Shown here piece after piece: positions 25,237-39,833 of a DNA stretch of 64,000 nt. Positions within the stretch are counted from its first letter, which is position 1, and each line of letters opens with the position of its first letter. The notes beneath the pieces were generated by a model. The model saw only the letters and a program-made list of their open reading frames with translations. It made no database searches and was not told where the DNA came from. Both the position numbers and the translations under genes were made by a program. The DNA is from an uncultured Bacteroidia bacterium (GTDB taxonomy: Bacteria > Bacteroidota > Bacteroidia > Bacteroidales > UBA932), in assembly GCA_902784435.1 (NCBI GenBank), contig CACZUR010000003.1, forward strand, positions 1-64,000. The letters are read 5' to 3'.

Positions 25237-26399
25237 TGAAACGTCTCCTTTGTATTTTTCTGGCGCTCGGCGCCATCCCCGTTTTCGCCCAGAACCCTGA
25301 GGATCTGGACCGCGACCGCTCCAAATATGCTACCTACTCCTTCTCCAAGGACGACCAGTATAAGGTGGAAACCCCTTACCGGACGGTGAGTGTGAAACAG
25401 CCCAAGGGCAAGAAAATCAAGAATGTGATTTTCATGATCGGCGACGGCACCGGCCTCACGCAGTGGAATGTGGGCTGGGTGGCCAACGGGGGTGCCCTGA
25501 ACATCGACCAGATGCCTGTGGCCGGCTATTCCCGTACCTATGCCACCGACAAGCTCATCACGGATTCCTGCGCCGGCGGCGCCGCCCTGGCCAACGGAAA
25601 GAAGACCAAATACGGTTACATCGGCCTGGGCCCCGACGGAGAGAAGGTAGAATCCAACCTGCAGTGGGCCAAGCGTGTGAAGGGCATGAAGACGGGCGTT
25701 ACCGTCACCTGCCGCATCAATGACGCCACCCCGGCGGACTTCTGCGTGCACGGCCCCACCCGCAAGGATGAGGAAGGCCTGGCCGCCCAGTACGTGGACG
25801 CCGACGTAGACTTCATCTCCGGCGGCGGCACCCATTTCTGGAACCAGCGTTCCGACGGCCGCAACCTCATCGAGGAGATGAAGGCCAAGGGCTATACCTA
25901 CGTGGACAAACTGGAAGACATTGCCGGCGCACAGGGCGGCAGATTCCTGGGCCTGTACGACGAATACGACCTCAAACCCGCCCTGGACCGCGGTCCCATT
26001 CTCCTGGAAAGCACCCTGAAGGCCATTCAGATGCTCGACAACAAGAAGGGCTTCTTCCTCATGGTGGAGGGTTCCCAGATTGACGATTGGGCCCACCGGA
26101 ACAAGGTGGGGTACATGTGCGAGGAACTTTTCGACTTTGACAAGGTGATCGGCGCCGTTTTGGAATGGGCCGAAAAGGACGGTCACACCCTGGTGGTGGT
26201 GACGGCCGACCACAACACCGGCGGTCTCACCCTGCTCAAGGGCAGCATCGAGGACCGCGAGGTAAAGGTGCACTTCTCCACCAAGGGCCATGACGGCATC
26301 GTGGTGCCCGTGTTTGCCTACGGGCCCGGCGCCGAGGCCTTTGCCGGCGTGCACGACAACGCGGAAATTGGACAGATTGTAAGGAAACTGCTCAAATGA
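25236..26399 (+). CDS. Alkaline phosphatase (PhoA-like)
   Basis: This is an exported phosphomonoesterase of 387 residues. The signal peptide is MKRLLCIFLALGAIPVFAQ. Family metal and nucleophile motifs are in order: NVIFMIGDGTG (metal Asp), ITDSCAGGAALANG (nucleophile Ser111 after Asp110), MVEGSQIDDWAH, and VVTADHNTGG (metal Asp and His). C-terminal GHDG supplies a further His. It starts one base before the GH2 stop codon is complete, and its own stop overlaps the GH20 start as ATGA, so it is tightly coupled into the glycosidase operon. A phosphatase in this position suggests that the target glycan, or a released sugar, carries phosphate; this is inference. The larger reading frame upstream of 25236 is a shadow of GH2. 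Confidence 0.93.
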   Translation: MKRLLCIFLALGAIPVFAQNPEDLDRDRSKYATYSFSKDDQYKVETPYRTVSVKQPKGKKIKNVIFMIGDGTGLTQWNVGWVANGGALNIDQMPVAGYSRTYATDKLITDSCAGGAALANGKKTKYGYIGLGPDGEKVESNLQWAKRVKGMKTGVTVTCRINDATPADFCVHGPTRKDEEGLAAQYVDADVDFISGGGTHFWNQRSDGRNLIEEMKAKGYTYVDKLEDIAGAQGGRFLGLYDEYDLKPALDRGPILLESTLKAIQMLDNKKGFFLMVEGSQIDDWAHRNKVGYMCEELFDFDKVIGAVLEWAEKDGHTLVVVTADHNTGGLTLLKGSIEDREVKVHFSTKGHDGIVVPVFAYGPGAEAFAGVHDNAEIGQIVRKLLK

Positions 26400-28555
26400 T
26401 CCGGCTGCTCACCCTCATACTGGCCCTGATGCCCCGGCTCATTCCCGCCCCTGCCGAAATGCAGGTGCGGGACGGGTCGTTTACGCCGGGTGCCGGGAAA
26501 CAGGTGCAGTTCGTGCTGGATAAAAAGGCCGGATTGCCGGCCGAAGGCTACATCATAGATATCACGCGCTCGCGCGCGAAGGTGACGGCTTCCTCCGAAG
26601 CCGGCCTCTTCTATGCCCGCCAGACGCTGTCCCAACTGGAGATGGCCGGTCAGGCCGGCCATGACGTCATTCCCGGCTTGACCGGGAATCTTCCCTGCGT
26701 GTATATCAAGGACTACCCCCGTTTCCGCTGGCGCGGATTCATGGTGGACGCCGCGCGCCATTTCATGAGCGTAGAGCAGATCAAGCGGCACATAGACATC
26801 CTGTCGCAGTACAAGATCAACGTCCTGCACTGGCATCTGACCGACGACCAGGGCTGGCGCATCGAAATCAAGAAGTACCCCCCCCTTACCCAGGTAGGTG
26901 CCATCCGTACGGAGTTTGACGGCTCGGTTACGGAAGGCTATTATACCCAGGAGCAGATCAAGGACGTGGTGGCCTATGCCGCCGAGCGCTTCGTGACGGT
27001 GGTTCCGGAAATCGAGATGCCCGGCCACAGCATGGCGGCCATCCGCTCGTATCCGGAGCTCTCCTGCGAAAAGCAGCCGGTAGGGAACTTCTACACCTGG
27101 GGCTCTCCGGACATCGTCCTGTGTCCCGGCAGCGAGTTCACCTTCCGTTTCCTGGAAGACGTGATCGCGGAGGTGGCGCCCCTGTTCCCCGGCAAGTACA
27201 TCCACATCGGCGGCGACGAGTGCAAGAAAGTGCGCTGGGAAAAATGCCCGGCCTGTCAGGCGCGCATTGCCTCCGAAGGCCTGGTGGCCGATGAAAAAGG
27301 CACGGCCGAAGAAAAGCTCCAGAGCTATGCCGTCCGGCGCATGGAAGGCATCCTGGCCAAGTTCGGCAAGAGCCTCGTGGGCTGGGACGAAATCCTGGAA
27401 GGCGGCCTGAGCCCCAACGCCACCGTCATGAGCTGGCGCGGCGAAAAGGGCGGCATCCAGGCAGCCCGCGAAGGCCACGATGTGGTGATGACCCCCGGCA
27501 GCGCCGGCCTGTACCTGAACCATTACCAGGGAGACCCCAAGGCGGAGCCGGAGTGCTATGCCCACCACTCCGTCCTGCAGGTTCCCTATGACTACAATCC
27601 GGTTCCTTCTGAGCTTACCGCCGAGGAAGCGAAGCACATCCTGGGTGTGCAGGGGAACCTCTGGAGCGAGTATATTTACTCCGACGCCATGCGGGACTAC
27701 CTCACCTTCCCCAAGATGTTCGCCGTGGCCGAAACCGCCTGGACTCCGCAGGAAAAGAAAGATTTCCCGGACTTCTGCCGGCGTCTGGATGCAGCCTGCG
27801 CCCGCCTGGATGCCCTGGGCATTACTTATCACATGCCCCTTCCGGAACAGCCCGGCGGTTCGTTCAGCCAACTGGCTTTCCGTGACTCCGCGGTGCTCAC
27901 TTTCACCACTTCCAGGCCCATGGACATGGTCTATACCCTGGATGGAACGGTGCCCACGGCGGCATCGGCCCGCTATGAAGGCCCCATCGTGGTCCGGGAA
28001 AGCGGCCTGCTGCGCATCGCCAGCCTCACTTCCTATGGCAAGCTGAGCCCCGAGCGCAAGGTAACCCTTGAGAAGATGGAACCCATCCCGGCACTCCATC
28101 CGGAAAAGCTCAGCGGAAAACTCTCCGTACGCCATACGCCCGGCCGCTTTATCCTTCCGCACGACATTCCCTTCGGCACGGAGTGGACCACCTTGGAGCT
28201 GGAAGATATCCGCAAAATCCCCAAGCTGTATCCCTTCAGCGGCAATATGCAGGACCCGAAGTTCTTCGCTGCCGAGGCCGAAGGCTACTTCCGGGTATCG
28301 GCCACCGATGCCTGGCAGTTCAGCTCCCTCTACGACGAAGTGTGGGTGGACGGCCGCCTGGTGGTGGACAACCGCGGGGAAATCAGGAAAAACTTCCGGC
28401 ACGACGGTTCCCTGGTGCTGGAAAAAGGCATCCACCACCTCCGCGTGGTATTTTTGAGCAACGTGAACGGCGGCTGGACCACCGCCCGCAACAAAGGCGA
28501 AGTGCTGGTGCGCCGCGCCGGTACCGAAAAATGGAGACAGATAGAGATTCAGTAG
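26396..28555 (+). CDS. GH20 beta-N-acetylhexosaminidase with PA14-like tail
   Basis: The enzyme removes terminal beta-linked GlcNAc or GalNAc. The 719-residue product has a weak signal (MIRLLTLILALMPRLIPAPAE), an N-terminal alpha/beta domain, and a TIM barrel from FRWRGFMVDAARHFMSVEQ with LHWHLTDDQGWRIEI. The catalytic Asp274-Glu275 pair is in HIGGDECKKVRW. Family motifs GWDEIL and WRGEKGG follow. A short Fn3/chitobiase-type segment (TLDGTVPTA) and a C-terminal domain of about 130 residues resembling PA14 (AEGYFRVSATDAWQFSSLYD, LEKGIHHLRVVF) complete it; PA14 domains often bind sugars. Its start overlaps the phosphatase stop, and the GH18 gene starts two bases after its stop. It probably acts on oligosaccharides in the periplasm. 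Confidence 0.95.
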   Translation: MIRLLTLILALMPRLIPAPAEMQVRDGSFTPGAGKQVQFVLDKKAGLPAEGYIIDITRSRAKVTASSEAGLFYARQTLSQLEMAGQAGHDVIPGLTGNLPCVYIKDYPRFRWRGFMVDAARHFMSVEQIKRHIDILSQYKINVLHWHLTDDQGWRIEIKKYPPLTQVGAIRTEFDGSVTEGYYTQEQIKDVVAYAAERFVTVVPEIEMPGHSMAAIRSYPELSCEKQPVGNFYTWGSPDIVLCPGSEFTFRFLEDVIAEVAPLFPGKYIHIGGDECKKVRWEKCPACQARIASEGLVADEKGTAEEKLQSYAVRRMEGILAKFGKSLVGWDEILEGGLSPNATVMSWRGEKGGIQAAREGHDVVMTPGSAGLYLNHYQGDPKAEPECYAHHSVLQVPYDYNPVPSELTAEEAKHILGVQGNLWSEYIYSDAMRDYLTFPKMFAVAETAWTPQEKKDFPDFCRRLDAACARLDALGITYHMPLPEQPGGSFSQLAFRDSAVLTFTTSRPMDMVYTLDGTVPTAASARYEGPIVVRESGLLRIASLTSYGKLSPERKVTLEKMEPIPALHPEKLSGKLSVRHTPGRFILPHDIPFGTEWTTLELEDIRKIPKLYPFSGNMQDPKFFAAEAEGYFRVSATDAWQFSSLYDEVWVDGRLVVDNRGEIRKNFRHDGSLVLEKGIHHLRVVFLSNVNGGWTTARNKGEVLVRRAGTEKWRQIEIQ

Positions 28556-28556
28556 T

Positions 28557-29843
28557 ATGCATAACAGACGGATCATAAGCACCTTCGTGTTCCTTTCCCT
28601 GCTGGTGTGCGCCTGCACGCCGGACCAGCAGGGTCTGGTCATCACTCCGCCCAATTCCAAGCCCAATTCCGGCACCCAGAACGGCGGCGGAAACAACAAT
28701 AATAACAGCAACGGTCAGGGCACCGACCCCGGCACCGGCACCACCACCCCCCAGCCCGCCGGAACGCTGTGCACGGACATCGGCCAGACACCCATCATCC
28801 TGGCCTACTTCACCGAGTACACCGAAACCCTGCCGGAGGTGAGCCTCCTCACCCACATCAACTACGCCCACGGCCGCTTCAAGAACCCCAAGACCGGTGA
28901 CGGCGGCATCGTGATCACCGAGTCCTCCAAGGCGCCCATCGCCAAGGTGGTGGCCCTCAAGAGCGTGAACCCCAAACTGAAGGTGATGCTCATGATCGGC
29001 GGCTGGGGCGCCCATGCCGACGGCTTCTCCATGATGGCCCGCGACGCAGCCAAGCGCACTGCTTTCTGCAAGAGCGTGAAGCAGCTGCTGGACTTCCACA
29101 AGCTGGACGGGGTGGACATCGACTGGGAATATCCCACCCAGAGCGCAGACAACGAGACGGGCTGCGACCCCTCCGACACCCAGAATTTCAACCTGGTACT
29201 GAAGGAGTTACGCGAAACCCTGGGCACCGGCAAGATCATCTCTTACGCTTCTTCTTCCTCCCATCCGGAATATGTAGACTGGGCCACCGCCATCAACTAT
29301 ATCGACTACGTGAACGTGATGACCTACGACATGGGCGCGGCCCCCAAAGGGCATAACTCCCCGCTGCACAAGGGCGAGCGTTTCACCCACAGCAGCTGGG
29401 ACGAGAGCATCCAGAAGCACGAAAAATACCATGTTCCCAAGAACCGCCAGGTGATGGGCGTCCCCTTCTACGGCAAGGCCGAAAAGAACCCTGAGGACGC
29501 CTACAAGGTCTTTGTGGACAGCAAGGGGAAGCTGGGCTATTCCATCAAATACCGGGATATCGTCCCCATCGTCAAAGAAGGTACCTACATGGGCGTGACT
29601 CTTACGAAAAAACTGCACCGTGTGTGGGATCCCAAATCCATGGTACCTTTCCTGGCCGACGATACGGGCCGCAATTACCTCTCCTACGACGACCCCGAAT
29701 CCGTTGAGGCCAAGGGCCTGTACGTGAAAAACGGCGGAATGCTGGGCGCCATGTTCTGGGAGTACCGCGGCGACACCGACAACCACGACCTCCTGAAAGC
29801 CCTGGTGAAGGGCGTCTACGGAAAAGAAACTGTTTTACAATAG
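28557..29843 (+). CDS. GH18 chitinase-like surface lipoprotein
   Basis: GH18 enzymes cleave internal beta-1,4 bonds next to GlcNAc in chitin or N-glycans. The 428-residue product has a lipoprotein signal (FVFLSLLVCACTPDQQ) and then a low-complexity linker rich in Asn, Gly and Thr (residues 35-70). The barrel holds VMLMIGGWG and the catalytic DGVDIDWEYP motif with Glu191. NVMTYDMG and MFWEYRGD are later barrel motifs. All DxxDxDxE residues are present, so it should be active. The flexible linker and acidic residue after the lipobox fit a surface enzyme. Whether it prefers chitin or N-glycan cores cannot be decided. It immediately precedes the first SusC. Confidence 0.93.
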   Translation: MHNRRIISTFVFLSLLVCACTPDQQGLVITPPNSKPNSGTQNGGGNNNNNSNGQGTDPGTGTTTPQPAGTLCTDIGQTPIILAYFTEYTETLPEVSLLTHINYAHGRFKNPKTGDGGIVITESSKAPIAKVVALKSVNPKLKVMLMIGGWGAHADGFSMMARDAAKRTAFCKSVKQLLDFHKLDGVDIDWEYPTQSADNETGCDPSDTQNFNLVLKELRETLGTGKIISYASSSSHPEYVDWATAINYIDYVNVMTYDMGAAPKGHNSPLHKGERFTHSSWDESIQKHEKYHVPKNRQVMGVPFYGKAEKNPEDAYKVFVDSKGKLGYSIKYRDIVPIVKEGTYMGVTLTKKLHRVWDPKSMVPFLADDTGRNYLSYDDPESVEAKGLYVKNGGMLGAMFWEYRGDTDNHDLLKALVKGVYGKETVLQ

Positions 29844-29884
29844 AATACAAACACATATAAACTATTAATCTAACTAACTAACCA

Positions 29885-32800
29885 ATGAAACAGAAAGTAG
29901 TCCAAATTGCAAGACTGGCTGCTGTGCTGTGTCTCCTGCTGGGAATGTGGGGCCCTACGGCCCTGGCCCAGCGGGGCATTACCGTCAAAGGTAAGGTGGT
30001 AGACGCAGACGGTTTGCCGGTGATCGGTGCGGGTGTCACCCTGAAGGGGACCACCACCGGTGTGGCTGCCGATGTGGACGGAGCCTTTACGCTGAACGTT
30101 CCCGGCGAGACTGCTGTACTGGAAGTGTCGGCCCTCGGTTATGTGACCGAAGAGGTGAAAGTGGGCAAGCAGCGGAATTTCACCGTTGTGCTGCGCGACG
30201 ACACCCAGTCCATTGAAGCCACGGTGGTGGTGGCCTATGGTACCCAGACCAAAGCCACCGTCACGGGCGCCCTGACGTCCATCGACAACAAGGCGCTCAT
30301 CAAGGCCCCCGTGGCCGACGTAACCAACGTGCTGGCCGGTCAGATGCCCGGTGTTTCCACCGTGCAGGAAACGGGTCAGCCCGGTGAAGACTACGCCAAG
30401 ATCTACATCCGAGGCGCAGGCTCCCTCTCCGACTCCAACGCCACTCCGCTCATCCTGGTGGATGGCGTGGAACGTCCCCTGAACACGGTGGACCCCAACG
30501 AAATCGAGAGCCTGTCCATCCTGAAGGATGCCGCCTCCACGGCGGTGTTCGGTGTGCGCGGCGCTAACGGTGTCATCATCGTCACCACCAAGCGCGGCGA
30601 CGCCGGCAAGCCCAAGATCTCCGTGAGCTCCATCACCGGTGTGCAGGTGCCCATGTCCTACATCACCCAGAGTTCCAGCTACGACTTTGCCCGTTATTAC
30701 AACGTGTACCAGTGGAACGACGGCAAGACCGACCCGGGCCTGTACTTCACCCCGGAAGCCATCGAGGCCTACCGCACGGGCAGCGACCCCATCATGTTCC
30801 CCAACACGCAGTGGCACGAACTCATGTTCCGCAAGGCCTTCGTCCAGACCAAGAACAACATCAACATCAGCGGCGGTTCGGACAAGGTGCGTTACTTCGT
30901 GTCCATGGGTTACATGTTCCAGAACGGTCTGCTGAAGCAGATTCCGGATGTCACCTACGACAACAACTACTCCTACAACCGGTATAACTACCGTGCCAAC
31001 CTGGACTTCAAGCTCACCGAGACCACGGACATGAAGTTCAACATCAGCGGTGTCATCGGCAACACCCGCGAACCCCTGGACAGCGACCGCGGCAACATCT
31101 GGATGCTCACCATGCTGTGGGCACACCCCACGGCCTCCCCGGGTATCGTGAACGGCATGCCGGTGACGGTGGTGTCTTACGACGCCCTGCCCGACGGCCT
31201 TACCAAGTGGAACGGCTGGGAGTACTACTACTGGTCCGGTTACCAGGCCAAGTACAAGACCACCCTGGACATGGACATGACCATCACCCAGCGCCTGGAC
31301 TTCATCACCCAGGGCCTGAGCGCCTCTCTCAAGGGCAGTTATGACACGGACATGGCCATCACCAAGAAACGCACCGGCAGCGGCGGTTATCACCAGACCA
31401 TCGAATACCAGTCCTGGGCCGACAACAGCGGCCTGTCCATGAGCGACCCCGCCTTCGACCGCACCTATCTGCCGGTCATCAGCGGCTCCGAGCCCACCCT
31501 GAGCTACTCCGAATCCACGGACGACGACAAGAGCTGGTACATCGAGGCCCGAATCGACTACAAGCGCAAATTCGCCCACAAGCACAATGTGAGCGCCCTG
31601 CTGCTGTACAACCAGTCCCGCGACTACTATCCCAGCAAATACAGCTGGCTGCCTTACGGTTACGTGGGCTGGGTGGCCCGCGCCACCTACGGCTACAAGG
31701 ACAAGTACCTGGTAGACCTGAGCGCCGGTTACAACGGCTCCGAGAACTTCGCCCCGGGCAAGACCCGTTACGGTCTGTTCCCGTCGGCCTCCCTGGGCTG
31801 GGTGGTCTCCGAGGAGAAATTCATGAAGAAGGCCCCCTGGATCGACTTCCTCAAGCTGCGCGCCTCCATCGGCAAGGTGGGTAACGACCAGGGCAATTCC
31901 GTGCGCTTCATGTACATGGACGGCGTGTGGAACAATGCCGGTTCCTACTACTTTGGCGTGAACAGGAGCGACGGCGTTCCGCGCTACGAGCTGGGCACTC
32001 CCGGCAACCTGGGCGTTACCTGGGAGACGGCGCTCAAGAGCAACATCGGCCTGGACTTCGACCTCTTTAACTACCGCCTGCACTTCAGCGGCGATATCTT
32101 CCAGGAGCACCGCACCGGTATCCTCATCGCCCCGCGCTCGCTGCCGTCCATCATTGCCACCAGCCTGCCCAATATGAACCTGGGTATCGTGGACAATGCC
32201 GGTTACGAGGTGGAACTGGGCTGGAAGGACCACGTGGGCGACTTCACCTATGATATCAGCGGCAACGTCACCTTCGCCCGCAACAAGATTATCTTCGAGG
32301 ACGAAGTGGAACCCGAATTCGAGTATCAGCGGGAAACCGGCGGTTCTACCGGCCGATACATGCTGTACCAGTTCGAGCGCCTGTACCAGAAGAGCGACTT
32401 CTACCGGGATGCCGACGGCGTCTTGCGCCTGAACCCCGACCTGCCGCAGCCTTCCAACGCCGTGTATCCCGGCGACTGTATGTACAAGGATCTGAGCGGT
32501 GACGGCGTCATCGACGGCCGCGACCGTATGTACGACGGTTATCCCAACCGTCCGGAATACGTGTTCGGTTCCAACTGGCGCTTCGGTTACAAGGGTTTCA
32601 ACCTGCAGCTGAACTGGATTGCCGCCACCAACGTGAGCCGTGTGTGGAACGCCGACTACCGTATCCCGTTCACCAACTCCGGTCACCGTGGCTTGCTCAA
32701 GTACTTTGCCGACGACTGCTGGATTGACAACGACAATCCCTGGGCCCCCGGCCGTGAAGACGGCACCCTGCCGCGCTTCACCAAGACCAACTATCCCTGG

Positions 32801-33058
32801 AACTCCATGGACTCCACCCTCTGGACCGTGGATGCTTCCTACCTCCGACTCAAGAGTGCCAGCTTCGGCTACACCTTCTCCCGGAACAAATTCTTCGACA
32901 AACTGGGCATCAGCAGCCTGGGCCTGATGTTCACGGGCTACAACCTGTGGACCCTGTCCAAGATGACGCTCCAGGACCCGGAAGCCAAGTCCAGCTCTTC
33001 CAGCGGTTCCTACCCGCTGGTGAAGACCTACAACCTGGCCATCAACATCACATTCTAA
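29885..33058 (+). CDS. SusC-like TonB-dependent outer-membrane transporter
   Basis: This is the outer-membrane channel of a SusCD glycan importer, 1057 residues. The signal peptide ends at TALAQRG. A CarboxypepD_reg domain follows (residues 30-110; VKGKVVDADGLPVIGAGVT, DGAFTLNVPG), then a TonB-box-like EATVVVAYGTQ. The plug domain has NVLAGQMPGVSTVQETG, LILVDGVERP and ESLSILKDAASTAVFGVRG. The remaining 800 residues form the barrel, ending in the aromatic NLAINITF. It is 41 bases after the GH18 gene and 12 bases before its SusD partner. The substrate is inferred from the neighbouring GH18/GH20 enzymes. Confidence 0.96.
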   Translation: MKQKVVQIARLAAVLCLLLGMWGPTALAQRGITVKGKVVDADGLPVIGAGVTLKGTTTGVAADVDGAFTLNVPGETAVLEVSALGYVTEEVKVGKQRNFTVVLRDDTQSIEATVVVAYGTQTKATVTGALTSIDNKALIKAPVADVTNVLAGQMPGVSTVQETGQPGEDYAKIYIRGAGSLSDSNATPLILVDGVERPLNTVDPNEIESLSILKDAASTAVFGVRGANGVIIVTTKRGDAGKPKISVSSITGVQVPMSYITQSSSYDFARYYNVYQWNDGKTDPGLYFTPEAIEAYRTGSDPIMFPNTQWHELMFRKAFVQTKNNINISGGSDKVRYFVSMGYMFQNGLLKQIPDVTYDNNYSYNRYNYRANLDFKLTETTDMKFNISGVIGNTREPLDSDRGNIWMLTMLWAHPTASPGIVNGMPVTVVSYDALPDGLTKWNGWEYYYWSGYQAKYKTTLDMDMTITQRLDFITQGLSASLKGSYDTDMAITKKRTGSGGYHQTIEYQSWADNSGLSMSDPAFDRTYLPVISGSEPTLSYSESTDDDKSWYIEARIDYKRKFAHKHNVSALLLYNQSRDYYPSKYSWLPYGYVGWVARATYGYKDKYLVDLSAGYNGSENFAPGKTRYGLFPSASLGWVVSEEKFMKKAPWIDFLKLRASIGKVGNDQGNSVRFMYMDGVWNNAGSYYFGVNRSDGVPRYELGTPGNLGVTWETALKSNIGLDFDLFNYRLHFSGDIFQEHRTGILIAPRSLPSIIATSLPNMNLGIVDNAGYEVELGWKDHVGDFTYDISGNVTFARNKIIFEDEVEPEFEYQRETGGSTGRYMLYQFERLYQKSDFYRDADGVLRLNPDLPQPSNAVYPGDCMYKDLSGDGVIDGRDRMYDGYPNRPEYVFGSNWRFGYKGFNLQLNWIAATNVSRVWNADYRIPFTNSGHRGLLKYFADDCWIDNDNPWAPGREDGTLPRFTKTNYPWNSMDSTLWTVDASYLRLKSASFGYTFSRNKFFDKLGISSLGLMFTGYNLWTLSKMTLQDPEAKSSSSSGSYPLVKTYNLAINITF

Positions 33059-33070
33059 ACAAGGCGTCCC

Positions 33071-34900
33071 ATGAAAAAGTTTGTACAAATTCTGAGCATT
33101 GCCCTGCTGGCAGCAGGACTGGTCGCCTGTGAAAGTCTGAAACTGGGCGACGCCGGCCTGTCCAAGGCCCCCGAGACCTCCGGTGCCACCATCGACACCC
33201 TCTTCGCCACCCTGACGGATGCCGACAAAGTGCTTACATCGGCCTATTACAACCTTCCGTACGGGCTGGTGTCCGACTTCGACTCCAAGATGGGAAGCGA
33301 TTTCCTGGAGTCCATCACGGACCACTTCATTTCCAACAAGCACTCGGACAGCGACGGTCCCAACAACCTGTATTACTCCGGCGGTCTGTCCGCCAACCTT
33401 ACCGGTTCCTATGCCGGCGGCGAAAACTACCGCTTCGGCAGCGAGAAGGATTACACCGTCGTCCGGTATGCCTGGCTGTTCCTGGAGAACGCCGACCGCA
33501 TCCCGAATGCCGATCCCGGCCTCCTGGCCCGCAAGAAGGCCGAAGCCAAGGTGTGCATGGCCATCGCCTATGCCAACATGCTCCGTTACCTGGGCGGCGT
33601 CCCCATCCTGGACCACGCCGTGCAGGCCGACGAAGAGATGAAATACCCCCGCAACACCTTCGCGGAAACCGTAGATTATATCGTGAAGCTTTGTGACGAA
33701 GCCGCCCCGGACCTCCCCTGGAGCGTTTCCGCCGCGGAAGACGGCCGCATGACCCGCGCCGCCGCCCTGGGCCTCAAGCTCAGGATCCTGTGCTTCGCCG
33801 CATCGCCCACCTTCAATTCCGACACCAAGTGGCATCCCCAGGCCGATGAGTACACCTGCTACGGCAATTACGACGTAGCCCGCTGGCAGGCCGCCAAGGC
33901 CGCTGCCGACGAGTTCATGCGCGAGCAGCTGTCCAACGGCCACTACGCCCTGGAGCAGGCCACCGTGGCCGACCCCGTCAAGGGCATCCAGCCCCGTGAC
34001 TACCGCCTGGCCTACCGCCGGGGATACATCAACCGCGGTTCCTCGGAAGCCATCATCTCCATCCGCAAGTCCAACAGCACCAGCTACCACGACAAGCACT
34101 TCGAGATCCAGGGTTCCTACGGCAGCGGCTGCTCCCTGAACTGGGTAAACAAATTCCCCTGGGCCGACGGCACCCCCTTCCCGGAGGACTTCGACTGGGA
34201 GAACAAGGGCAACTGGCCTGAGCATCCCTTCTTCAAACCGGATCCCAACGGTACCCTCAAGGTGGGCAACGCCACCTTCACCGAAACCCGTGACCCCCGT
34301 CTGTACGAGAACATCGGCGTTCCCGGCGACCTTTGGAGAGACGGTACCGTGGGCCGTGGCTATGACAACCACAAATACCACCAGGACGGCTGCCCCGGCT
34401 TTATCATGATGAAATTCGTGATGCAGCAGAACAGCGACCGTTCCAACCCGCCGCACTGGTGCATGATGCGCTTCGCGGAGGTGCTCCTGAATGCAGCCGA
34501 GGCCTATAACGAGGCCGATGGCGGCCCCTCCGACAAGGCCTATTCCTATGTGAATGCCGTGCGCAACCGTGTGGGCCTTCCCAACCTTCCCGAAGACCTG
34601 ACCAAGGAAGAATTCCGCAAGGCCCTGATCCTGGAGCGCGAACTGGAGTTCGGCTTCGAGGAGGTGCGCTGGTTTGACATGGTCCGCTGGGGCCTGAAGG
34701 AAGCCTTCACCACGCCCCTGAAGGGTCTCACCTCCATAGGTGACAAGAACAGCGAGGCCACCGTCTTCCGCTTTGCCGTGAAAGACGCCTACCCGCCCCG
34801 CAAGTGGTACACCGAATTCGACACCAAGTGGTATCTCGCCCCTATCCCGTCCGTAGAAATCCAAAAGAACTACGGAATGACCCAGAACCCGGGTTGGTAA
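33071..34900 (+). CDS. SusD-like (RagB/SusD) glycan-binding lipoprotein
   Basis: This is the surface lid of the SusC transporter, 609 residues. The lipoprotein signal is MKKFVQILSIALLAAGLVACES (lipobox VAC-E). The helical SusD fold is supported by TDADKVLTSAYYNLPYG, AKVCMAIAYANMLRYLGGVP and the C-terminal RFAEVLLNAAEAYNEA and ILERELEFGFEEVRWFDMVRWG. The tail YLAPIPSVEIQKNYGMTQNPGW is the usual SusD ending. It sits 12 bases after SusC, and the second SusC follows 20 bases later. Confidence 0.96.
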   Translation: MKKFVQILSIALLAAGLVACESLKLGDAGLSKAPETSGATIDTLFATLTDADKVLTSAYYNLPYGLVSDFDSKMGSDFLESITDHFISNKHSDSDGPNNLYYSGGLSANLTGSYAGGENYRFGSEKDYTVVRYAWLFLENADRIPNADPGLLARKKAEAKVCMAIAYANMLRYLGGVPILDHAVQADEEMKYPRNTFAETVDYIVKLCDEAAPDLPWSVSAAEDGRMTRAAALGLKLRILCFAASPTFNSDTKWHPQADEYTCYGNYDVARWQAAKAAADEFMREQLSNGHYALEQATVADPVKGIQPRDYRLAYRRGYINRGSSEAIISIRKSNSTSYHDKHFEIQGSYGSGCSLNWVNKFPWADGTPFPEDFDWENKGNWPEHPFFKPDPNGTLKVGNATFTETRDPRLYENIGVPGDLWRDGTVGRGYDNHKYHQDGCPGFIMMKFVMQQNSDRSNPPHWCMMRFAEVLLNAAEAYNEADGGPSDKAYSYVNAVRNRVGLPNLPEDLTKEEFRKALILERELEFGFEEVRWFDMVRWGLKEAFTTPLKGLTSIGDKNSEATVFRFAVKDAYPPRKWYTEFDTKWYLAPIPSVEIQKNYGMTQNPGW

Positions 34901-34920: not shown

Positions 34921-37900
34921 ATGAAAAGACTATTTACATATATCCTTCTTCCGCTTCTTCTGGCAGGTTCCACGGCCTTCGCGCAGGAGCAGTCCCTGCT
35001 GGACTCCCTGTCCCTGGGCAACGCATACAACCTGAATGCGAACGTGAACCTGAAAGCCGGAAGCTGCCTCTTTGACAAGAGCCCCGAAGCGGACATTTCG
35101 AATGCACTCTACGGTCAGTTCTCCGGCCTGCTGGTGAAGACGGGTTCCAGTACCTACGACTCCAACCAGGCCAAACTGAAGCTGTCCCTGCGCCTGCACG
35201 GCCACAGCCCGCTGCTGCTGGTAGACGGCCTGCCCCGCGACGTGGAAGACATCTCCGGCCTGGAGATCGAATCCGTGAGCATCCTCAAAGATGCTGCCGC
35301 CGCTGCACTGTATGGCGTCAAGGGCGGCAACGGCGTGGTGATGATCACCACCAAGCGCGGCAAGGACTCCCCGCTGAAGGTGAGCGGCACCTACCAGTAC
35401 GGCTACGCCGTCATGTTCCGCCCGCCGGAATTTGCCGATGCCTACACCTATGGCTTCATGATGAACGAGGCCCGCAGCCTGGACGGTCTGCCCGCCAAGT
35501 ATTCCGAGGCCGAACTCCTGGCCCTGTACAGCGGCCAGTACCCCTATGCCTATCCCAATGTGAACTGGTGGAACGAGGTCTACCGCAACCACGGTGACAA
35601 CCACCGCGCCCAGTTCACCTTCCAGGGCGGTAACCGCAACTTCCGCTATTTTGCGGCCCTGGACTATCTGAAAGAGGATTTCCTGTATAAGAAAGCCACC
35701 GCCGACGACCGCTACAACGGCAACCATTACGACAACCGCCTGGGCATCCGGGCCAACGTGGACGTGAACATCACCAGTACCACCACCATGAAGATTGGCG
35801 TGATGGCCCGCCTGGCCGAATTCAACCAGGGCTACTACTCCGGTCGTGTGGAAAGCACCCTGTACAAGCTGCCCGCCGCGGCCTTCCCCATCCAGCAGGC
35901 CGACGGAATCTATGGCGGAACGCCCCTGTACGGCGCCGTGAACCCGGTGGCCGTGATGCAGGAGAACGGTCAGCGCCAGTGGTCCCAGACCAAGGTCCTG
36001 GCCGACGCCATGCTGCGTCAGGACCTGGGCGGCCTCCTCAGGGGCCTGTCGGCCGACGTGAATGTGGGCTTCGACTACATCGGCCTGCTGTACGAGCGCG
36101 CCTCCAAGGACTGGCAGTATTCCGAACTGGTGAGCACCCTGGCTGCCCAGGGCAACCAGAGCTACATCCTCAGCGAACAGAAGTACTACGGCGTCAACTC
36201 CAAGACCGTGGACTTCGACCACTATTTCAAGAATCTGCAGATGCGTTTCGAACTGCAGGGACGCTTGAACTGGGCCCGCGACTTCGGAAAGAACCACCTG
36301 GAAGCCCACGCCGGCTACCGCATGCGTTCCTGGATCCTGAGCGGACAGAACAATTCGTCCAAGACGCAGGAATACCTGGGAACCGTGAGCTACGACTGGA
36401 ACAAGCGGCTGTTCGTAGACGCCGTGCTCAACTATTCCGGTACGGCCTACATTCCCAAGACCGGCAAGCGCTTCAACTGGTATCCCGCCATCAGCGTGGC
36501 CGGGGTCATCCTGCCCGGAGACCCTTACATCAAGGCCTATGCATCGGCCGGTATGGCCGGCAGCGACGGTGACCTGGAGCACGAACTGTGGCGCCAGAGC
36601 TATGTGAGCGGCAACAGCTTCTACTTCGGCGGCAACGGCGGCACCAGCTTCAGCGGCCGCACCGAAGGCGACATGGCTGCCGTCACCCTGGCTCCCGAGC
36701 TTTCCAAGAAGGCCACCGTGGGTGTGGACATGAAGTTCTTCGGCGGCCGTCTGGGCCTGAATGCCGATGCCTTCCTGGAGCACCGCAGCAACATCCTCAT
36801 CTCCCCGAGCAACATCTCCGGCGTCATCGGCATCGGTGTGAACGACCAGAGCCTGGGCGAGCAGAGTTACAAGGGCGTGGATGTGGGCGTCAACTGGAAC
36901 GAGACCCGCGGCCACTTCAACTACGGTCTGTATGCCAACGGCGGCTGGCTGTTCACCAAGGTCATCAATGACGGCCAGGCCTACCAGATGTACGACTATC
37001 TGTACCGCAAGGGTTATCCCGTGGGCCAGAAGTACGGCCTGGAAGTGATCGGTATCTTCCAGAACCAGGTAGAGATCAACAACAGCCCCCGCCAGACCTT
37101 CGGCGAGGTGCGCCCCGGCGACCTCAAATACCGCGACCAGAACGGCGACGGTGTCATTGACAACCAGGACCGCGTGCGCATGTTCGGCAGCTCCACGCCG
37201 CTGCTGCAGTTCGGCTTCGGCCTGCACGCCGGCTACAAGGGCTTCAAGGTATACGCCGACTTCCAGGGCGTTACCGGTGTTACCATCGACCTCCTGGACA
37301 GCCCGCTGTACCAGCCGCTGGTGAATAACGGCACCATCTCTAATACCTTCCTCAACCGGGAAATCACCTGGGCCCCCGGCCGGGAATACGCGGCCACCAT
37401 GCCGCGCCTGACCACCCAGGAGAACAACAATAACTACCGCGCCAACTCCCTGTGGTATCGCGACGGTTCCTTCATCAAGCTGCGCAACGTCGGCGTCTCC
37501 TACACCTTCCCGGAGAGCCTCCTGCGCCTGTGCGAAGCCACCGTGTTCCTGCGCGCCACCAACCTGTTCAGCCTGGACAATATCCATTTTGCCGATCCTG
37601 AACAGCTGGGCGCCTACTATCCTTCCACCCGTACTTTCTGGGCCGGCATCACCATGAAATTCGGCCAGGGCGGCAAGAAAGCCGCTGCGCCCAAGCAGCC
37701 CGTGCACGTAGAGCCTTACGTGCCGCAGGTCATCGAGAAAGAGGTGATCAAGGAAGTGCCCGTAGAAGTGGTGAAGGAAGTGGTGAAAGAGGTGGTGAAG
37801 GAAGTTCCCGGCAAGACTCTCACGCCCGGCGAGAAGTATGAGGACGACCTCTACTTCGTCATCGACCAGGCCGAGCTGAGGCCCGACGAGGCCTTCAAAC

Positions 37901-38151
37901 TGGGCCGCATCTGCCAGATTCTCAAGGACAATCCGGACGCGAAGATTTACATCACCGGCTATGCCGACACCGCCACCGGAACGCCCGAGGGCAACAGGAT
38001 TCTCTCTGCCAAACGCGCCAACTCCGTCGTGGACATGCTCGTGAAAGCCGGCATTTCCCAGAACCGCATCGTCGCGGAAAGCAAGAACACCGACCGTGAC
38101 GCATCGGCCAGCCCTGCATCCAACCGCGTTGCCGTTTGTATCATCAAATAA
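34921..38151 (+). CDS. SusC-like transporter fused to a C-terminal OmpA domain
   Basis: The 1076-residue product has signal peptide MKRLFTYILLPLLLAGSTAFAQ. The plug follows at once: DISNALYGQFSGLLVKTG, LLLVDGLPRDVED, ESVSILKDAAAAALYGVKG. The CarboxypepD_reg domain of ordinary SusC proteins is absent, and no TonB box is obvious. The barrel runs to about residue 925 (TFWAGITMKFGQGG), where SusC proteins normally stop. Here it continues through a linker of repeated KEV units (EKEVIKEVPVEVVKEVVK, residues 938-965) into an OmpA-like domain (975-1076; YFVIDQAELRPDEAF, YITGYADTATGTPEGN, LSAKRANSVVDMLVKAGI, SNRVAVCIIK). OmpA domains bind peptidoglycan; the family Asp and Arg are both present. The protein would be a channel tied to the cell wall. 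It pairs with the SusD gene 14 bases downstream. Confidence 0.92.
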   Translation: MKRLFTYILLPLLLAGSTAFAQEQSLLDSLSLGNAYNLNANVNLKAGSCLFDKSPEADISNALYGQFSGLLVKTGSSTYDSNQAKLKLSLRLHGHSPLLLVDGLPRDVEDISGLEIESVSILKDAAAAALYGVKGGNGVVMITTKRGKDSPLKVSGTYQYGYAVMFRPPEFADAYTYGFMMNEARSLDGLPAKYSEAELLALYSGQYPYAYPNVNWWNEVYRNHGDNHRAQFTFQGGNRNFRYFAALDYLKEDFLYKKATADDRYNGNHYDNRLGIRANVDVNITSTTTMKIGVMARLAEFNQGYYSGRVESTLYKLPAAAFPIQQADGIYGGTPLYGAVNPVAVMQENGQRQWSQTKVLADAMLRQDLGGLLRGLSADVNVGFDYIGLLYERASKDWQYSELVSTLAAQGNQSYILSEQKYYGVNSKTVDFDHYFKNLQMRFELQGRLNWARDFGKNHLEAHAGYRMRSWILSGQNNSSKTQEYLGTVSYDWNKRLFVDAVLNYSGTAYIPKTGKRFNWYPAISVAGVILPGDPYIKAYASAGMAGSDGDLEHELWRQSYVSGNSFYFGGNGGTSFSGRTEGDMAAVTLAPELSKKATVGVDMKFFGGRLGLNADAFLEHRSNILISPSNISGVIGIGVNDQSLGEQSYKGVDVGVNWNETRGHFNYGLYANGGWLFTKVINDGQAYQMYDYLYRKGYPVGQKYGLEVIGIFQNQVEINNSPRQTFGEVRPGDLKYRDQNGDGVIDNQDRVRMFGSSTPLLQFGFGLHAGYKGFKVYADFQGVTGVTIDLLDSPLYQPLVNNGTISNTFLNREITWAPGREYAATMPRLTTQENNNNYRANSLWYRDGSFIKLRNVGVSYTFPESLLRLCEATVFLRATNLFSLDNIHFADPEQLGAYYPSTRTFWAGITMKFGQGGKKAAAPKQPVHVEPYVPQVIEKEVIKEVPVEVVKEVVKEVVKEVPGKTLTPGEKYEDDLYFVIDQAELRPDEAFKLGRICQILKDNPDAKIYITGYADTATGTPEGNRILSAKRANSVVDMLVKAGISQNRIVAESKNTDRDASASPASNRVAVCIIK

Positions 38152-38165
38152 AAAGAGCGAAAGTT

Positions 38166-39833
38166 ATGAAAAAGATATTCTATATTCTCTCCGCTGCGCT
38201 CCTTCTTGCAAGCTGCAACTTCCTGGATTTTGACGAATCGTCCAGCCAGTACTCCCGCGAGGACATGTACAAGACTTACAGCAATATCCAGAAGATGCTC
38301 ACCAACATCTACGGCTACATGCCCAACAAGGATATCGCCGATGTGTCCAGCGCCCTCCGCGACTGTGGCAGTGACGACGCCGAATACGCGGACCCCGAGG
38401 CCAGCGTCCAGCGTTTCACCAACGGCAACTGGAGCCCCCTGCAGACCGTAGACGACAAATGGAGCCTGTACAACGGCGTCCGCAGCGCCAACGAGTTCCT
38501 GGAGTCCATCCAGACCGTGGACCTGTCCATGTACCAGTACGACGTGAAATACCAGCGCTGGCTGGAACACCTGGCCTATTATCCTTACCAGGCCCGGGTC
38601 CTGCGCGCCTATTTCTTCTTCGAGCTAGCCCGCCGCTACGGCGACATCGCCATGCCCCTGACCATGCTCACCGCCGAGGAGGCCAACGCCATTGAGAAGA
38701 CCCCCTTCGACCAGGTCATCGACTTCATCGACACGGAGTGCTCCGCGTGTGCCGCACAGCTGCCCACCACGTATGTGGGTCTGATGGACGACGAGATCGG
38801 CCGCGTGACCAACGGCTTCGCCCTGGCCGTGCGGGCCAAGGCGCTGCTGTACGCCGCCTCCCCGCTGCACAATCCTTCCGGCGACAAAGCCAAGTGGCAG
38901 AAAGCTGCCCGCGCCGCCAAGGACCTCATCGACCTGAACCAATACCAGCTGGATCCCGCCGAAAAGGCCAACAACTACCTTTCTCCGGAGGTGATCATGG
39001 CCATCTGCCGCTCCGAAAGCCAGAGCTTCGAGCGCTACAACTTCCCGGTCCGCTTCACCGAGGGTGACCGTTCCTCCATGGCCGGCACCTTCCCCACCCA
39101 GAACCTGGTGGACGCCTTCCAGACGGCCGCCGGCTACGACATCACCCTGGGTGCGAACGGCTGGCAGACCGCCGACCCCGCCTTTGACATCACCAAGCCT
39201 TACGAAGGCCGCGATCCCCGCTTCGCCCGGGCCATCCTGGCCAACGGCATGCCGTTCAAGGGCTCCACGATCGAAACCTTCGTCGGGGGCAAGGACTACA
39301 GCGCCACCCGCAGCGAACTGGGTACGGCTACCGGCTACTACCTCCGCCGTTACATTCAGGAAAGCACCAGCTTCACCCCTGAAAATACGGTGACCAACAA
39401 ACACCAGTGGATTGTCTACCGCTACGCCGAGGCCCTTCTGAGCTTCGCCGAGGCCGCCAATGAGGCCTTCGGTCCTGCCGATGCCTCCCTGGGCCTGAGC
39501 GCCCTGGATGCCATCAACCAGGTGCGGGCCAACGCCGGCATGCCGGACGTTGAGGCCTCCGACGCAGCCGCCTTCCGCGAGGCCGTACGCCGCGAGTGGC
39601 GGGTGGAATTCGCCTTCGAAGACCACCGCTTCTGGGACGTGCGCCGCTGGAATATCGGCCAGGATGTGATGGGCCAGATAGACGGTGTGGAAATTGTGAA
39701 GAGCGGAGCCAACCTCTCCTACAGCAGGAAGGTGGTGGAAACTCGCACCTGGTCTTCCAAGATGAACCTCTATCCCATCCCGCAGGCCGAAGTGTTCAAC
39801 AATCCCAACCTTACCCAAAACACCGGATGGTAG
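38166..39833 (+). CDS. SusD-like lipoprotein, partner of the SusC-OmpA fusion
   Basis: The 555-residue product starts at ATG 38166, giving MKKIFYILSAALLLASCNFLDFDE with lipobox ASC-N; an earlier in-frame Met would add ten polar residues. SusD features include YQARVLRAYFFFELARRYGDI, GFALAVRAKALLYAASPLHNP, YRYAEALLSFAEAANEA and VRREWRVEFAFEDHRFWDVRRW. The tail is LYPIPQAEVFNNPNLTQNTGW. Acidic residues just after the lipobox fit surface export. It likely closes over the fused SusC and helps choose its substrate. Confidence 0.95.
   Translation: MKKIFYILSAALLLASCNFLDFDESSSQYSREDMYKTYSNIQKMLTNIYGYMPNKDIADVSSALRDCGSDDAEYADPEASVQRFTNGNWSPLQTVDDKWSLYNGVRSANEFLESIQTVDLSMYQYDVKYQRWLEHLAYYPYQARVLRAYFFFELARRYGDIAMPLTMLTAEEANAIEKTPFDQVIDFIDTECSACAAQLPTTYVGLMDDEIGRVTNGFALAVRAKALLYAASPLHNPSGDKAKWQKAARAAKDLIDLNQYQLDPAEKANNYLSPEVIMAICRSESQSFERYNFPVRFTEGDRSSMAGTFPTQNLVDAFQTAAGYDITLGANGWQTADPAFDITKPYEGRDPRFARAILANGMPFKGSTIETFVGGKDYSATRSELGTATGYYLRRYIQESTSFTPENTVTNKHQWIVYRYAEALLSFAEAANEAFGPADASLGLSALDAINQVRANAGMPDVEASDAAAFREAVRREWRVEFAFEDHRFWDVRRWNIGQDVMGQIDGVEIVKSGANLSYSRKVVETRTWSSKMNLYPIPQAEVFNNPNLTQNTGW

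Follow-up and report, generated by a model that had tools for sequence, protein, structure and literature searches.

SusC-family glycan importers with an OmpA-type tail that behaves like a 3' cassette in a genus of Bacteroidales

Introduction

What could a SusC-type glycan transporter gain from an OmpA-like domain behind its barrel, and would it still import? The question is raised by a forward-strand gene in a 64,000-nucleotide stretch of DNA (the window; GenBank assembly GCA_902784435.1, contig CACZUR010000003.1, positions 1 to 64,000) from an uncultured Bacteroidia bacterium (Bacteroidales; UBA932). Its product runs from a SusC barrel through a linker into an OmpA domain, and to our knowledge the known SusC/RagA transporters (BT1763, RagA) end at the last barrel strand. 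We consider it fairly probable, while well short of certain, that this tail anchors functional SusCD importers to peptidoglycan and can be exchanged between them; we infer peptidoglycan binding in this organism, continued transport, and a benefit.

Domain architecture of the fusion protein

The frame is uninterrupted from ATG to TAA over 1076 codons, and the following features were assigned to it.

34921..38151, + strand: SusC-OmpA fusion gene, 1076 amino acids (aa), open frame (TIGR04056 513.5 bits; PF00691 E 5.9e-16)
34921..34983, + strand: probable Sec signal peptide, residues 1-21, read by eye with no signal-peptide program
35074..35337, + strand: plug domain, residues 52-139, with no N-terminal extension (NTE) ahead of it (PF07715 22.3 bits, just under the cut-off; TIGR04056 from model position 107)
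35074..37662, + strand: SusC plug and barrel, residues 52-914, last strand at 903-914 (TIGR04056; AlphaFold2 strand; end of 50 of 50 tail-less rows at 914)
37663..37830, + strand: KEV-repeat linker, residues 915-970 (sequence; predicted local distance difference test score, pLDDT, <50 at 917-964)
37843..38148, + strand: predicted OmpA-type peptidoglycan-binding domain, residues 975-1076 (PF00691 at 978-1064; Foldseek matches to OprF, PorE, Pal, and Acinetobacter baumannii OmpA 3td3/3td5)
37966..37968, + strand: D1016, equivalent to the Asp that binds peptidoglycan (aligned with Pal 1oap and with 9uu2; motif in 93/93 tails)
38014..38016, + strand: R1032, counterpart of the peptidoglycan-binding Arg (Pal alignment; motif in 93/93 tails)

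The initial annotation of the window had described a SusC barrel, a KEV-repeat linker, and an OmpA domain in a single frame, and this architecture was confirmed. The SusC model TIGR04056 matched residues 52-914 above its cut-off of 368.25 bits, and the SusC signature TIGR04057 scored 60 bits (cut-off 46.2). The generic Pfam models proposed for checking the plug and barrel both remained sub-threshold (22.3 bits against a cut-off of 23.9 and 21.7 bits against 27, respectively), and the protein is recognized as SusC by the two TIGR models instead. The expected PF00691 match to the tail was found with 59 bits (cut-off 27.2). The reported absence of an NTE and of an obvious TonB box was also reproduced: the Pfam scan gave no PF13715 (NTE) match, and neither reading nor a loose pattern identified a TonB box between signal peptide and plug, where a divergent box is possible. 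In BT1763 this box is VDEVVV, according to part of PMC7782687. Because TIGR04056 is passed without the NTE, we assign the body, by sequence, to an NTE-less group of the SusC family.

The full-length AlphaFold2 model, of modest confidence (27 sequences, mean pLDDT 61), placed the final barrel strand at 903-914, followed by a low-confidence segment (917-964) and a folded OmpA domain. With this model, Foldseek ranked structures of the levan SusC BT1763 on top and RagA in the top ten. The tail modeled on its own, again with modest confidence (mean pLDDT 62.5, linker low), was matched foremost to the peptidoglycan-binding domains of OprF, PorE, and Pal (5u1h, 6top, and 9uu2 among the matches) and also to A. 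baumannii OmpA (3td5), including a structure with a peptide ligand. The structure prediction suggested for the tail thus agrees with an OmpA fold.

Predicted peptidoglycan-binding residues and selection on the tail

The family Asp and Arg were said to be kept, and in the alignment D1016 and R1032 do fall on the Asp and Arg of Pal. The equivalent residues of A. baumannii OmpA bind diaminopimelate, as described in an excerpt of PMC6572160. The ratio of nonsynonymous to synonymous change (dN/dS) in the OmpA part was below 0.35 in 17 of 18 orthologue pairs, and the eighteenth (0.62) was almost without changes; in several pairs dN/dS of the tail exceeded that of the body. We read these values as purifying selection on the OmpA part. 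Outer-membrane barrels have their C-terminus on the periplasmic side, which would place the OmpA domain where peptidoglycan is. Anchoring of the fusion to peptidoglycan is likely, as judged from sequence and structural models.

Distribution of tailed SusC proteins

We searched 300 genomes of the genus with a profile (A1) built from nine tails. KEV tails gave 76 matches of at least 171 bits in 32 genomes, with 72 of the matches in frames longer than 1000 aa; the remaining four frames measure 319-683 aa, and the three that were checked all stand behind SusC barrel sequence (in G134, in two frames). A second type of fusion, with an Ala-rich linker, accounted for at least 11 tails in 5 genomes, at 91-114 bits. 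Ordinary OmpA proteins, mostly of 350-410 aa, ranked below the KEV tails. Tailed SusCs of either linker type were identified in at least 33 of the 300 genomes, with the Ala-linker type possibly undercounted, and none stood among the matches listed for the other 267.

The family search (299 genomes, including genus members) added KEV tails in four genomes of a second genus, one of them in a 274-aa frame ended by the contig end. No tail beyond the source genome was found in the order search (393 genomes, E 1e-30), and no fusion beyond it in the phylum search (385 genomes, profile A3, E 1e-22). Because scoring in both covered the top 8-9 candidates of each genome, rare or divergent fusions elsewhere in the phylum may have been missed.

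We retrieved loci for 64 of the 76 KEV sites, the 11 Ala-linker sites, nine family-search sites, and three genes for ordinary OmpA proteins. The 12 KEV sites outside this retrieval comprised six of the source genome, which were read separately, and G134:C40, G070:C4, G159:C49, G027:C58, G074:C72, and G155:C62. Counting frames over the retrieved loci, the source-genome loci, and L009-L042 (L009 and L084 are one locus; L161 and L129 are truncated by contig ends), 102 matched the tail, of which 93 matched a SusC profile built and iterated inside the same set and nine were ordinary OmpA proteins of 226-457 aa. That the tail occurs only on SusC holds for the frames read, because sites were mostly chosen for long frames. 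The SusC bodies of the tailed frames fell into 21 groups at 45% identity, and 84 of the 93 tailed SusCs had a SusD-like gene no more than 400 nt away. Among curated models, TIGR04056 matched 8 of 8 tailed proteins and the Pfam plug model 4 of 4 others. Records of close relatives are ruminant-gut Bacteroidales metagenome-assembled genomes (MAGs).

Body group 6 (L092, L098, L099, L108, L140, and L141) consists of tailed SusCs with no SusD-like gene within 400 nt; a BACON protein stands directly next in three of the six frames (three checked).

Tailed SusC proteins of the source genome

In the source genome, 6 of the 17 SusCs above the TIGR04056 cut-off bear an OmpA tail. Identity among these six is 21-43% in the bodies (BLAST segments) and 42-64% over the final 200 residues. 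Seven other frames with an OmpA domain above the Pfam cut-off, of 233-568 aa, were also identified. Four of the six tailed loci lie near glycoside hydrolase (GH) genes of families GH18/GH20, GH88, GH3, or GH2, and at the fifth (L047) the three scanned neighbor proteins gave only a weak BACON match. A tie of the tail to one substrate was rejected, with tailed loci sitting in differing gene clusters (neighbors of L045 not scanned).

Apart from the fusions, the source genome holds two near-duplicate blocks (L051 1627-5534 on C41 and L049 5258-9165 on C22), each encoding an OmpA protein of 452-457 aa, a protein of 621-622 aa, and a protein of 182-188 aa; one block sits on a contig of 7.7 kb and the other close to the end of a contig. 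A tandem of three ordinary OmpA-type genes (400-405 aa) was noted at L048 3528-7419 (C7).

Presence and absence of the tail among orthologues

Relatives of the barrel of the fusion protein were present in 53 of the 300 genus genomes, four tailed by frame length (the match in G005 ends before the C-terminus, leaving the tail state not visible). The nearest relative in this search (82% identity) is tail-less, and the most distant tailed one stands at 70%. On the orthologue tree of 57 rows, seven of them tailed (two being the same locus), at least five tail changes were counted, all forced by well-supported branches, and the body of the fusion pairs at 99* with L010, a tail-less protein of 86% identity. 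The final residue of all 50 tail-less rows is 914, on the last barrel strand. In a second body group, the nearest orthologue (86%) is tail-less and four genomes at 78-82% are tailed.

A single origin of the tailed genomes was not supported by a dnaE tree, on which at least nine changes were forced. This tree covers 49 hand-picked, not random, genomes (50 were asked, G111 having no dnaE match), with tail counts from the genus search.

At L257 (G168:C3:42500-50500), SusD1 and SusC2 of the same operon share one 1467-aa frame from position 1122, with no tail, which represents a SusD-SusC fusion or a lost stop.

Cassette-like behavior of the tail

We traced DNA identity along the gene for pairs chosen for similar tails, and by this measure the tail behaves like a cassette of ~430 bp. 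In pairs of different body groups, identity was ~30-65% at the barrel end, rose inside the linker, and dropped after the stop, the rise reaching 81-100% in L166/L090 and ~60-96% in the other cross-group pairs. The fusion gene compared with L044 of the same genome rose to 60-86% in the tail. In two orthologous control pairs, the identity of the barrel DNA stayed high too (68-91%). For L166/L090, the OmpA DNA was 92% identical, with the barrel end at 51% and the 3' flank at 49%. OmpA DNA identity of 80% or more was found in 51 of 3743 cross-group pairs, and both flanks were at 41-57% in the 25 of these that were listed.

Synonymous difference (pS) was 0.17 in L166/L090 and 0.29 in L095/L116, and 0.41-0.57 in the other eight of ten cross-group pairs, a range at which protein constraint may contribute to the resemblance of the tails. 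L115 and L119, from one genome (G155) and one body group, have near-identical tails (pS 0.20) on bodies that are 58% identical. Body group c7 includes five KEV tails and one Ala-linker tail. A AAAGAGCGAAAG-like stretch follows the stop in the fusion gene, L011, and L031, is partial in L009, and was present in none of the six tail-less genes listed; the cassette may include a few bases past the stop.

Import function and the missing N-terminal extension

The initial annotation had linked the missing NTE and TonB box to anchoring, and this part did not survive comparison. Tail-less orthologues begin likewise without an NTE (23 of the 27 sequences in the start alignment are tail-less), and other tailed SusCs keep it: in 7 of 8 the TIGR04056 match starts at position 1 or 2, the fusion of the window being the eighth, and CarbopepD_reg_2 was identified in 4 of 4 further tailed proteins scanned. 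We rejected the link on these grounds, and the absent NTE and TonB box are traits of the orthologue group, tailed or not. Since tailed SusCs mostly keep the NTE and mostly have SusD partners, they are expected to import as usual. Of the two roles first proposed, anchoring rather than pumping finds no support from the family, and anchoring as well as pumping fits better.

The start of the fusion gene (34921-35080) and its orthologues L009-L033 define a SusC group that has no NTE and no obvious TonB box and takes the second place in a tandem susCD-susCD operon. The way in which this group is energized is a separate puzzle, because BT1763 mutants without the NTE or without the TonB box grow abnormally on levan, as reported in part of PMC7782687.

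Operon and locus context

The fusion gene is followed by its partner susD and preceded by the ordinary SusCD pair that had been noted beside it.

38166..39833, + strand: partner SusD lipoprotein, starting 14 nt past the fusion stop (PF07980 E 4.2e-49; LPAM_1)
29885..33058, + strand: ordinary SusC with NTE, upstream pair (PF13715, PF07715; TIGR04056 918 bits)
33071..34900, + strand: SusD, upstream pair (PF07980 E 1.5e-42)
26396..28555, + strand: GH20 hexosaminidase, same gene cluster (Pfam E 6.4e-115)
28557..29843, + strand: GH18, same gene cluster (Pfam E 9.1e-62)

Across 26 loci (the window and L009-L033), the upstream SusC was present in 25, the upstream SusD in 26, and the downstream SusD in 25, the two missing genes being due to contig ends. 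The tandem susCD arrangement is common to tailed and tail-less loci alike, and because the operon is constant with or without the tail, the tandem pair predates it.

Positions 22756-54759 encode GH2, GH20, two GH18, two susCD pairs, and BACON proteins, and the region looks like a utilization locus for chitin or another GlcNAc glycan. A 1664-aa open frame antisense to susC-susD (29870-34864, - strand) is most likely a by-product of G+C-rich codons.

Discussion

In the explanation that we favor, a SusCD glycan importer would continue from its last barrel strand through a periplasmic linker to an OmpA domain holding the complex non-covalently on peptidoglycan, and many SusC genes of the genus would have acquired, lost, or exchanged a 3' cassette made up of linker, OmpA domain, and stop codon. 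One benefit could be retention, the importer being kept in the cell's own outer membrane and not shed in vesicles; an excerpt of PMC6222051 describes a Bacteroides thetaiotaomicron outer-membrane porin with a peptidoglycan-binding domain that stays in the outer membrane, and some SusC-like proteins that reach vesicles; it also describes a SusC with a 3xFlag tag at its C-terminus and the fractionation of outer membrane and vesicles. The other could be mechanical, the importer being fixed against the wall as TonB pulls. An anchoring role of peptidoglycan via ExbD has been proposed for the Ton motor, in the part of PMC10771500 consulted, and on that basis a wall-fixed importer might act as a fixed point for the pull. 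We entertain tentatively, as a rather doubtful extension, that the mobile cassette makes SusC importers wall-fixed in cis on the very peptidoglycan that ExbD interacts with, that TonB pulls between two points of one scaffold, and that species turn the anchor on or off for each importer by recombination at the susC 3' end.

Each part of the fusion resembles a known system. SusC/RagA transporters (BT1763, RagA) share the plug, barrel, SusD partner, gene-cluster context, and top fold matches; unlike them, the fusion has a linker and OmpA domain past the last strand, and the window protein is without an NTE or an obvious TonB box. OmpA/OprF porins also combine an outer-membrane barrel with a C-terminal peptidoglycan-binding domain of the same fold, but theirs is a small OmpA barrel and the barrel here is a SusC-family importer. 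PorE, a Bacteroidota protein of type IX secretion with a C-terminal OmpA domain, came second in the fold search of the tail, whereas the match covers only the last domain of PorE and its model NF052230 scored 46.6 bits (cut-off 600). Part of PMC12204202 presents PorE as a lipoprotein that combines parts resembling CpoB, TolB, a carboxypeptidase, and Pal, and proposes it as a Bacteroidetes tether. Pal has the same peptidoglycan-binding domain with the aligned Asp and Arg, but the signal sequence of the fusion shows no lipid cysteine by eye and the Pal model TIGR02802 gave 41.7 bits, below its cut-off of 125.35. SusC and OmpA domains are both well known; their fusion and its exchange between importers appear to be new. 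The layout had first been noted as undescribed, and we found no description of a SusC with an OmpA tail in the open-licence PubMed Central literature, with description elsewhere possible; it is not a one-off, given at least 33 of 300 genus genomes.

Several observations weigh against an exchangeable anchor. An orthologue of the same body group, from a different genome, is the closest protein match of 48 of the 81 KEV tails, a sign of vertical inheritance. Resolution of the OmpA tree (107 columns) is poor, with starred branches that force more than one change in groups c1 and c7 only, so exchange rests on DNA identity and the body tree. Tails of one genome resemble each other only slightly more (mean DNA identity 0.677 vs 0.661, with 45 of 2000 label shuffles as high), and strong same-genome homogenization of tails was rejected with this slight excess, though it is clear for L115/L119. 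The tail label is partly clustered on the dnaE tree (10 changes vs a shuffled mean of 14.8, 3 of 500 shuffles as low), and the fusion may have gained its tail or its sisters may have lost theirs. For the vesicle part, the excerpt of PMC6222051 places B. thetaiotaomicron SusC and a TonB-dependent receptor, both named with no mention of such a tail, mostly in the outer membrane, so a tail is unnecessary for retention there.

Descent alone, with tailed ancestral SusCs and loss in most lineages, would account for these orthologous best matches and for the clustering of body groups on the OmpA tree (26 changes vs a shuffled mean of 58). We give it little chance, since it sits poorly with the 51 cross-group pairs of high OmpA DNA identity between dissimilar flanks, the low pS of L166/L090 and L095/L116, two linker types within one body group, and the lack of fusions outside the family among the 393 order and 385 phylum genomes under the thresholds applied and a scoring of the top 8-9 candidates in each. 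Cassette-like DNA identity alongside best tail matches in orthologues indicates that inheritance and exchange both act on the tails. A tail could also be recombination-prone KEV/OmpA DNA carried as a neutral passenger without benefit, as its patchy presence, repeated gain or loss, and cassette-like DNA edges would allow; low OmpA-part dN/dS in 17 of 18 pairs, a binding motif kept in 93 of 93 tails, and the same order of domains on SusCs that have a second type of linker make this quite improbable.

The substrate usually induces SusC genes of clusters like these, a poor fit for a tether that should be constitutive. This argues against the abundant SusC barrel being one more general carrier between outer membrane and peptidoglycan, with transport incidental, as do the seven other OmpA-domain frames of the source genome and the lack of a tailed SusC among the matches listed for 267 of 300 genus genomes. 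Tails on SusCs from unrelated gene clusters would fit such a role, as would the report, in the part of PMC12204202 consulted, that no pal genes were detected in Bacteroidetes and that PorE is proposed as tether; we regard it as unlikely. With MAG data, one has to consider that a susC and an ompA-like gene were joined artificially in assembly or binning, near-identical tails in one genome (L115/L119) being prone to short-read mis-joining. Such an artefact is extremely improbable here: the tailed orthologue agrees in two separate records (L011 and L031; body dS 0.054), the junction is in frame directly past the last strand, a SusD-like gene follows in 84 of 93 cases, and none of the other 80 KEV tails in the comparison exceeds 74% identity to the OmpA domain of the fusion, which is hence no collapsed repeat.

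The exchangeable anchor that we favor would have consequences beyond this locus. SusC genes, usually taken as units, gain and lose a 3' module, which provides a natural, replicated plus/minus set with the same operon and the same barrel, with or without the tail. This set allows one to ask if wall-fixing a TonB-dependent transporter alters uptake, vesicle loss, or outer-membrane stability. It bears on the role of peptidoglycan in Ton-driven import, as raised in part of PMC10771500, and on outer-membrane attachment in a phylum for which the excerpt of PMC12204202 reports no detected Tol-Pal.

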